Origin: Streptomonospora nanhaiensis
GTDB taxonomy: Bacteria > Actinomycetota > Actinomycetes > Streptosporangiales > Streptosporangiaceae
DNA: 64,000 nt
Direction of reading: 5' to 3'
Assembly (NCBI RefSeq): GCF_026642255.1
Contig: NZ_CP113264.1
Span: 1,922,001 to 1,986,000, forward strand
In this document: positions 37,677-39,919 of the stretch, one piece after another
Position numbering within the stretch: the stretch's first letter is position 1
Layout of the letters: each line of letters opens with the position of its first letter
Made by a program: the position numbers and the translations under genes
Notes under the pieces: model-generated
What the model saw: the letters and a program-made list of their open reading frames with translations, nothing else
Databases searched by the model: none
Told to the model about the DNA's origin: nothing

Positions 37677-38627
37677 CTGGCAGCACCGACACGCCCCGTG
37701 GCGCCCCGAAGCCCGGCCCCCAGGCCGCGTCATATCCGCGAACTCCTCAACGCGGGCGAGCCGATGTTCTCCTTCGAGTTCTTCCCACCGCGCACGCCCC
37801 AGTCGCAGGAGCGGCTGTGGCGCGCGATCCGGGAGATCGAGGCACTCGGCCCGTCCTTCGTCTCGGTCACCTACGGCGCGGGCGGCAGCACGCGCGGGCT
37901 GACCGTGGAGACGACCGAGCGCATCGCCACCGACACCACCCTGCTGCCGGTGGCGCACATGACGCTCGTCGACCACTCCGTCGCCGAGCTGCGCCACCTC
38001 ATCGGGCGCTTCGCGGACGCCGGCGTCTCCAACATGCTCGCCGTGCGCGGCGACCCCCCCGGCGACCCCGACGGCGAGTGGGTCAGCCACCCCGAGGGGC
38101 TGACCTACACCGAGGAGCTCGTCCGCCTCCTCAAGGACAGCGGCGACTTCTGCGTGGGCGTGGCCGCGTTCCCGTACAAGCACCCGCGCTCGGCCGACGT
38201 GGAGACCGACACCGACCACTTCGTGCGCAAGTGCGAGGCGGGCGCCGACTACGCCATCACCCAGATGTTCTTCGACCCGGAGGACTACCTGCGGCTGCGC
38301 GACCGCGTGGCGGCCCGGGGGTGCGAGGTGCCGATCATCCCCGAGGTGTTCCCCGTGGTCCGCTCGTCCTTCATCCCGCGCTCGGAGAAGCTCTCCGGGG
38401 CCCCCTTCCCGCGCGCCCTGGCGGAGCGGTTCGAGTCCTTCGGCGACGACGCCGAGGCGGTGCGGGCCTTCGGCATCGAGCACGCCCAGCGCATGTGCGA
38501 GCGCCTGCTCGACGAGGGCGCGCCGGGCATCCACTTCATCACCTCGAACCAGTCCAAGGCCACCAGGCAGATCTTCCGTGAGGTCTCCGGTCGCCGGAGC
38601 CCGTCAGGGGCAGACGCGCGGCCATGA
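37674..38627 (+). CDS. metF: 5,10-methylenetetrahydrofolate reductase
   Basis: 317 aa. Reduces methylene-THF to methyl-THF for methionine synthesis; FAD enzyme. Signatures: [95 protein letters not shown], and [17 protein letters not shown] at the end. ATG 37674 at leaderless spacing. The 3' end overlaps the convergent GNAT gene by 89 bases. metK lies 16 kb downstream. Confidence 0.96.
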
Positions 38628-39153
38628 TCGAGAAGGGCTGGTCGGGGCTGCCCGGGAAGGCGAAGTCCTCCAGCACCTCGGTGAACCCGCACGAGCGGTA
38701 GAGGTGGCGCGCCGCCGACGGCCCCGTCCGCGTGGACAGGACGGCGGTGCGCTCACCGCGCCCCTCGCACAGGGCGTGGAGCACGGCCCGTCCCACGCCC
38801 TGGTTCTGCGCCTCGGGGTGGACGTGCACCTCGGCGATCTCCAGGGGGTCGGCGAGGTAGCGGCGCGCCTGGCGCGCCCGCCCGCCGGCGTGCAGCCCCT
38901 CGGCGACCATGTCGTGCCACCACTGGCCGCGCACGCCGTGGAAGCCGTAGGCGAAGCCGACGGGGCGCCCGTCGCGGAGCGCGACCACTGCGCGGAAGCC
39001 CGGGTAGTAGGCGTGGCCGTTCATGACGGCCGCGCGGCCGGGCAGCTGCTCGGGCGGCGGGCGCATGGCGGCCTCGTACACCCGGAGCAGCGCGGGGACG
39101 GCGTGCGTGAAGGCGGGCGGCGCCAGTTCGCGCAACTCGGTATCGGCTACCAC
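38539..39153 (-). CDS. GNAT-family N-acetyltransferase
   Basis: 204 aa. Acetyl-CoA motif A is [21 protein letters not shown] (about 110-130, Q/RxxGxG/A form); motif B is [13 protein letters not shown]. The N-terminal half carries [15 protein letters not shown]. The C-terminal 28 residues, past [11 protein letters not shown], are Arg/Trp-rich and encoded entirely within the 3' end of metF, so the true functional domain ends near the overlap. GTG 39153 with TAAAAT (plus 39160-39165) six bases upstream points to a leaderless mRNA. Substrate unknown. Confidence 0.85.
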
Positions 39154-39203
39154 AGCCCGATTTTAGGGCACGGGCCGCCGACGCGCCCTCGGCGCGGGGG
39201 ACC

Positions 39204-39232
39204 TTGACGGGTCGGACGGGCTGGGGTTAACT
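39204..39232 (+). promoter_or_regulatory. Strong sigma-70-type promoter reading into no known gene
   Basis: TTGACG at 39204-39209, a 17-base spacer and TTAACT at 39227-39232: the best vegetative-type promoter in the window. Expected start near 39239, directly before an SOS box. Confidence 0.65.
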
Positions 39233-39240
39233 GGTTTCTA

Positions 39241-39256
39241 TCGAACAGGAGTTCGA
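39241..39256. promoter_or_regulatory. LexA (SOS) box
   Basis: TCGAACAGGAGTTCGA matches the actinobacterial SOS box TCGAAC-N4-GTTCGA perfectly, flanked by A and T to extend the palindrome. It covers the predicted start of the plus-strand promoter at 39204-39232. Confidence 0.75.
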
Positions 39257-39352
39257 TTTGCTTCCGCCGGGTCCGCCCGGCGGAGTGCGGCGCGGCCGGG
39301 TTGGGGAGGGGAAGCCCCACGCCCGGCCGCGCCGTTGCGCCGGCCCCGGACA

Positions 39353-39392
39353 CGACGAGAACCGGCGCCCCGCGGGGTGCCGGTTCTCGTCG
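39353..39392 (-). terminator. Terminator of bldD
   Basis: 19-bp inverted repeat with one G-U pair and a two-base loop (CGACGAGAACCGGCG..., 39353-39371 with 39374-39392), 32 bases beyond the bldD stop. It could also terminate the plus-strand transcript from 39240. Confidence 0.8.
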
Positions 39393-39424: not shown

Positions 39425-39919
39425 CTAGAAGGCGTCGACCGCGCGGCGCGCCTCGGGGTCGAGGACCCCCCAGTTGATCAGCTCCTCGGTCAGGTCGCCG
39501 GGCGACTTGTCGTAGATGACCGCGAGTGAACGCAGGTCCTCCTGGCGGATGGACAGCACGCGCCCGTTGTAGTCGCCGCGCTGGCTCTGGATGGTGGCGA
39601 CGTAGCGGGAGAGCGGTCCTGCCTTCTCCTGCGGCAGCTGCTGCATGCGCTCCAGGTCGATCACCAGCTTGGGTGTCGGGCCCAGAGGCGTCGGCGCGGC
39701 GCCGCCCGGCAGCAGCTCCGACATGGGGACCCCGTAGAAGTCGGCCAGCTCGGCCAGCTTCTGGACGGTGACGGCGCGGTCGCCGCGCTCGTAGGAGCCG
39801 ACCACGACGGCCTTCCAGCGTCCGTGGGACTTCTCTTCCACCCCGTGCAGGGACAGGCCCTGCTGGGTGCGGATGGCGCGCAGTCGCGCACCGAGGGACT
39901 TGGCGTATTCGGATGGCAT
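39425..39919 (-). CDS. bldD: BldD, c-di-GMP-binding developmental regulator
   Basis: 164 aa. Represses sporulation genes in streptomycetes when bound to cyclic di-GMP. HTH_3 domain in residues 1-75 (SLGARLRAIRTQQGLSLHGVEE, then GSYERGDRAVTVQKLAELADFYGV). The C-terminal domain has Arg114-Gly-Asp116 and Arg125-Gln-Glu-Asp128, the RXD-X8-RXXD signature that binds the c-di-GMP tetramer; numbering coincides with the S. coelicolor protein. Its promoter carries a BldD box, consistent with the known autoregulation. GGGAG lies nine bases before the ATG. Confidence 0.96.
   Translation of the reverse strand: MPSEYAKSLGARLRAIRTQQGLSLHGVEEKSHGRWKAVVVGSYERGDRAVTVQKLAELADFYGVPMSELLPGGAAPTPLGPTPKLVIDLERMQQLPQEKAGPLSRYVATIQSQRGDYNGRVLSIRQEDLRSLAVIYDKSPGDLTEELINWGVLDPEARRAVDAF

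Follow-up and report, generated by a model that had tools for sequence, protein, structure and literature searches.

In the window, i.e., the whole 64,000-nucleotide stretch of Streptomonospora nanhaiensis DNA that was analysed, a promoter joined to a LexA (SOS) box lies between a GNAT acetyltransferase gene and bldD and faces no recognisable coding sequence, which raises the question of what it transcribes. The original prediction proposed a damage-induced small RNA or short peptide linked to BldD, and the elements on which it was built, i.e., TTGACG-N17-TTAACT, a perfect LexA site, and hairpins ending at 39392, were all found where it had placed them (Table 1). According to the reading that we favour and regard as quite probable, positions 39204 to 39392 constitute a LexA-repressed, SOS-induced structured RNA gene of about 155 nt, formerly the leader of a HEPN_SAV_6107 gene and now a free small RNA (sRNA).

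Table 1. Positions of the RNA element and its neighbours in the window
Feature	Positions	Strand	Remarks
Promoter	39204..39232	+	-35 TTGACG 39204-39209, 17-nt spacer, -10 TTAACT 39227-39232; predicted transcription start site (TSS) ~39239
LexA/SOS box TCGAACAGGAGTTCGA	39241..39256	.	Just 3' of the predicted TSS
Hairpin 1	39260..39286	+	Predicted fold; weakly conserved in the genus
Hairpin 2	39287..39335	+	Conserved RNA core; arms covary (compensatory changes)
Apical loop AGGGGAAG of hairpin 2	39307..39314	+	Closed by GGGG/CCCC
Hairpin 3	39353..39392	.	Terminator-like, GC-rich palindrome lacking a U tract; separates the RNA from the 3' end of convergent bldD
bldD	39425..39919	-	ORF; convergent neighbour, outside the element
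GNAT acetyltransferase (Pfam Acetyltransf_7)	38539..39153	-	Divergent neighbour; own -10 TAAAAT 39160-39165

The LexA box is a perfect palindrome at the predicted start, as would be expected of a member of the SOS regulon, and it agrees with the LexA motif of S. venezuelae (tCGAAC-N4-GNNCGa; PMC9380542). The perfect pattern TCGAAC-N4-GTTCGA occurs at two sites in the 7.27-Mb genome, the reversed-pattern control at none. Since the promoter was not listed by a promoter scan, the consensus of which is that of E. coli (TTGACA/TATAAT), we rely on conservation as evidence that it is real. The region downstream of bldD was compared over 37 genomes of the genus, the window genome included, and the palindrome was present with all 12 bases at the same place in 36 of them (39 of 40 when loci L099 to L101 are counted), nearly always beside CTTGACG-N17-GTTAACTG or a close variant. 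Expressed as mean pairwise identity over 36 genomes of the genus, conservation amounts to 100% for the 12 box bases, 96% for the -35 region, 93% for the -10 region, and 98% for the apical 16 nt of hairpin 2. The corresponding values are 53% for the promoter spacer, 50% for the N4 of the box, 46% for the stretch from the -10 region to the box, and 55% for the segment between box and hairpin 2, which holds hairpin 1; for comparison, the four-fold sites of bldD reach 71%, and the BldD protein is 95 to 100% identical across the genus. The conservation of box and hairpins that had been anticipated for relatives is seen in the box, in the apical loop region, and, as covariation, in the arms of hairpin 2. 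A single genome of the genus (G011, locus L035) was seen without promoter, box, and conserved hairpin in its GNAT-bldD gap; this is a natural loss, and the element is dispensable there. At locus L023, box and hairpin are kept and the -35 and -10 regions are gone, and the sequence beside the lost promoter gives the impression of the 3' end of a TnpB-type transposon gene.

The 156-nt plus-strand RNA is predicted to fold with -116 kcal/mol (z = -7.8). Hairpin 2 was scored with 17 pairs. Specifically, two-sided changes that keep the pair were observed within the genus at 6 pairs (18 cells; shuffles, 0 to 1 of 500), and across orders compensatory changes were found at 14 of the 17 pairs (83 cells), with a covariation score above that of all 500 shuffles. 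G.U pairs prevail over A.C pairs in this hairpin, with counts of 42 versus 1 in the genus and 81 versus 13 across orders, which identifies the plus strand as the folded RNA. The loop AGGGGAAG is invariant in the genus, and GGGGAAGC is retained in relatives from other orders. At the position of hairpin 3, a hairpin of -30 to -51 kcal/mol is present in 35 of 36 genomes of the genus. The locus combines a conserved promoter bearing a LexA box, a hairpin whose arms covary, a G.U bias on the plus strand, and a terminator-like hairpin, and thereby gives good support, at the level of sequence comparison, to the proposed damage-induced small RNA; in keeping with what would be expected of a stand-alone sRNA, having its own promoter and being noncoding, the promoter is conserved and no ORF is.

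The short peptide offered as the other possible product would start at TTG 39258 behind an AGGAG inside the box, and in the window genome a 56-codon open frame with this Shine-Dalgarno (SD)-like sequence does exist; however, most relatives lack the TTG start codon, neither a start codon nor a reading frame is conserved, the distance from box to loop shows an even spread modulo 3, and the loop is invariant at all codon positions. We give the peptide practically no credence. Hardly more credible is control of the divergent GNAT gene by the LexA box, which precedes the GNAT start, on the other strand, by 88 nt: where the start could be recognised, this gene mostly carries TANNNT about 7 bases before a leaderless GTG, the promoter on the side of the box points the opposite way, and other upstream genes are found at other loci with box and hairpin. 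The GNAT gene, which the original prediction named as the only rival target and as having its own -10 region closer to its start, was rejected as the LexA target.

Homologs of the favoured RNA gene were collected with two covariance models, R1, built on hairpin 2, and R2, a broader model with 44 diverse seeds; both were seeded with the window sequence among others, so that its model scores are not independent, and the E values of these home-made models are rough. In the window genome R1 has a single strong match; within the order it hits 128 of 347 genomes, including a few false positives, and R2 hits 299 of the 347. The R1 matches L092, L097, and L110 were rejected as false positives, having no box and a different loop; L109 has a typical hairpin (AGAGGGGAAGCTCC) and no recognisable box upstream. 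At 148 of 154 loci the hairpin is preceded within 260 nt by a LexA box with no more than 1 mismatch, compared with 0 of 154 downstream control windows, these loci being mutually related and mostly collected through homology or synteny and hence not independent tests. A class-wide R2 search with strict filters returned few genomes outside the order; the relatives in other orders (Pseudonocardiales, Micromonosporales, and Sporichthyaceae records) came from a HEPN scan. The window RNA shares the features of the family, i.e., a hairpin with the GGGGAAGC loop and covarying arms. In Rfam 15, nothing exceeded the gathering threshold for the window and 18 divergent loci. Judged from the sequences, these RNAs would form a structured, SOS-controlled family without an Rfam entry, serving as mRNA leaders in most relatives and standing alone as an sRNA in the window genome.

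Downstream of the hairpin, most relatives have an SD sequence and then a HEPN_SAV_6107 gene (PF18726; three proteins were tested, with E = 1e-33 to 1e-35), no strong terminator-like hairpin lying in between, and none of the HEPN-bearing leaders tested has a hairpin as strong as hairpin 3. The unit of promoter, box, hairpin, and HEPN gene was found in Microbispora, Streptosporangium, Nonomuraea, Planotetraspora, and others in a scan of named genomes, and also in Pseudonocardia, Umezawaea, Amycolatopsis, Allokutzneria, Pilimelia, Dactylosporangium, and a Sporichthyaceae record; at the Streptomyces and Kitasatospora HEPN loci that were fetched, box and hairpin were absent within 650 nt. PF18726 was detected in 270 of the 347 genomes of the order and in no genome of the window's genus, the window genome included, where the bldD end directly follows the RNA. 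The statement that the promoter reads into no known gene is correct for the window, but not for the homologous element, which reads into a PF18726 gene that this clade has lost. Compared with the leader mRNAs of Streptosporangiaceae and other actinomycetes, the window locus has a homologous promoter-box-hairpin unit with the same loop; unlike them, in which a 5' untranslated region (UTR) leads to SD and HEPN, it has lost the ORF and carries a terminator-like hairpin instead.

The RNA is also found without a PF18726 match in other genomes, among them G084, G107, G120, G121, G123, G149 to G157, G319 to G324, G342, and G344. When 30 genomes were placed on a CarB tree, parsimony needed, to account for the HEPN-less state, 5 changes, at least 3 of which are forced by strongly supported branches; the clade of the window represents one such forced change (12/12 rows, support 91/91), and G316, a fragmented draft, carries little weight. 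The leader arrangement is presumably ancestral, and the window's clade would have lost the HEPN reading frame while keeping promoter, box, and hairpin 2, by which the leader would have become a free sRNA. One may object that the hairpin could act solely in cis, as a leader for stability or translation of the HEPN mRNA, and be a decaying relic in genomes without HEPN. In most relatives it indeed sits in the HEPN 5' UTR, roughly 20 to 110 nt before the SD sequence and start codon, but in the 36 HEPN-less genomes of the genus the box and the apical part are held nearly or fully constant next to neighbouring bases at about 50% identity, the arms stay complementary through compensatory changes, and almost every genome on the tree that lacks HEPN still carries the RNA, which makes a relic unlikely. 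An independent role of the RNA is indicated because box, promoter, and loop are under strong selection in lineages without the HEPN gene; judged from these patterns, the RNA has probably outlived its gene and works on its own during DNA damage.

The position of the RNA immediately 5' of the HEPN gene, under one promoter, could also mean that it is a partner of the HEPN protein (an inhibitor, sponge, or guide in the style of an RNA antitoxin) that persisted when the protein was lost. HEPN domains frequently act as RNases or bind RNA (PMC3710099), and R-x4-H is invariant in an alignment of 16 HEPN proteins; however, according to the 2013 HEPN survey the SAV_6107 family lacks the Rx4-6H motif (PMC3710099), and RNase activity of HEPN_SAV_6107 is doubtful for this reason. 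Moreover, the RNA survives without HEPN, and a single promoter would induce RNA and protein together, so that we consider a partnership of this kind rather improbable.

Very unlikely is an SOS-induced antisense regulator of bldD, even though RNA and bldD are convergent across the genus and in some relatives. Where the two are adjacent, a bidirectional terminator-like hairpin separates them, the conserved sequence is hairpin 2, which is not near bldD, and in many relatives bldD is not adjacent to the RNA or the HEPN gene intervenes. The suggested link to BldD consequently found no support, as many relatives have the LexA promoter and the RNA away from bldD, before HEPN_SAV_6107. Hairpin 3, a strong GC stem common to RNA and bldD, may serve bldD alone.

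LexA repression and its RecA-driven release are established biology. For the free sRNA that we propose, LexA bound to the box would block the start site, and upon DNA damage RecA would trigger self-cleavage of LexA, allowing RNA polymerase to transcribe hairpins 1 and 2; the transcript would probably end at hairpin 3, shared with bldD. The RNA may act in trans through its exposed AGGGGAAG loop, by pairing or by protein binding. The 10-mer GAGGGGAAGC occurs 27 times in the genome (31 times for the reversed control), i.e., it is not enriched, and there is accordingly no hint of base-paired targets. The idea that the loop sequence or its complement is a repeated element was likewise dropped, as neither is enriched in the genome. 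In its widest form, the proposal is an undescribed, actinomycete-wide class of SOS-induced RNAs with an invariant GGGGAAGC loop that act in trans during DNA damage, are cotranscribed with an RNA-handling HEPN protein in most lineages, and have repeatedly outlived it, to which we give about an even chance.

Among known systems, IstR-2 of E. coli is comparable in that its promoter is LexA-repressed and opened by DNA damage, as is predicted for the window RNA; it belongs to an unrelated phylum, and neither homology nor an Rfam relation to the window RNA was found. To our knowledge, IstR-2 is not known to derive from an mRNA leader. A 2008 prediction survey (PMC2527527) names IstR-2 as a LexA-regulated sRNA and gives, for many bacteria, 113 candidates that have LexA boxes. 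Like the window RNA, 6C RNA (RF01066) is an actinobacterial hairpin sRNA, but its loops are C-rich, whereas the loop of the window RNA reads GGGGAAG; the RF01066 model matches neither the locus nor any other part of the window genome. 6C RNA reportedly has a role in the SOS response of Corynebacterium. The idea of a 6C sponge was abandoned, as no 6C RNA was detected in the genome. In the open-licence literature we found neither a description of the HEPN_SAV_6107 leader, closed descriptions being possible, nor a LexA-controlled sRNA in actinomycetes; a survey of Streptomyces noncoding RNAs does not mention LexA, and the main text of the S. venezuelae LexA regulon paper mentions neither HEPN nor an sRNA (PMC9380542). 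If our reading is true, it adds a noncoding RNA arm to the actinomycete SOS response, ties an unstudied HEPN family to DNA damage, and provides a natural experiment in which an mRNA leader became an independent regulator, the invariant loop making searches for targets and partners directly testable.

Several further arrangements were observed. Loci of the Streptosporangium/Nonomuraea type (L095, L098, L104, L106, L107, L117, and similar ones) have a TTGACA flanked by two LexA boxes, with the -10 TATGTT (N17) inside the second box, TCGAATTTATGTTCGA. The HEPN leaders L106, L122, L130, and L141 have in common a first hairpin with a GGGACTCGCGGCCC-like motif, which the window's genus does not have. 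In Pseudonocardia (L187, L189, and L194), the hairpin follows the LexA box by about 20 to 25 nt and precedes the HEPN domain by about 550 to 600 nt; the interval before HEPN may contain a small ORF or reflect a longer leader. Finally, the second perfect LexA box of the window genome (C1:483786-483801, equal to L031:5787-5802) is located 12 nt before the GTG of an 86-aa DUF6504 protein, the gene of which is likely an SOS gene.
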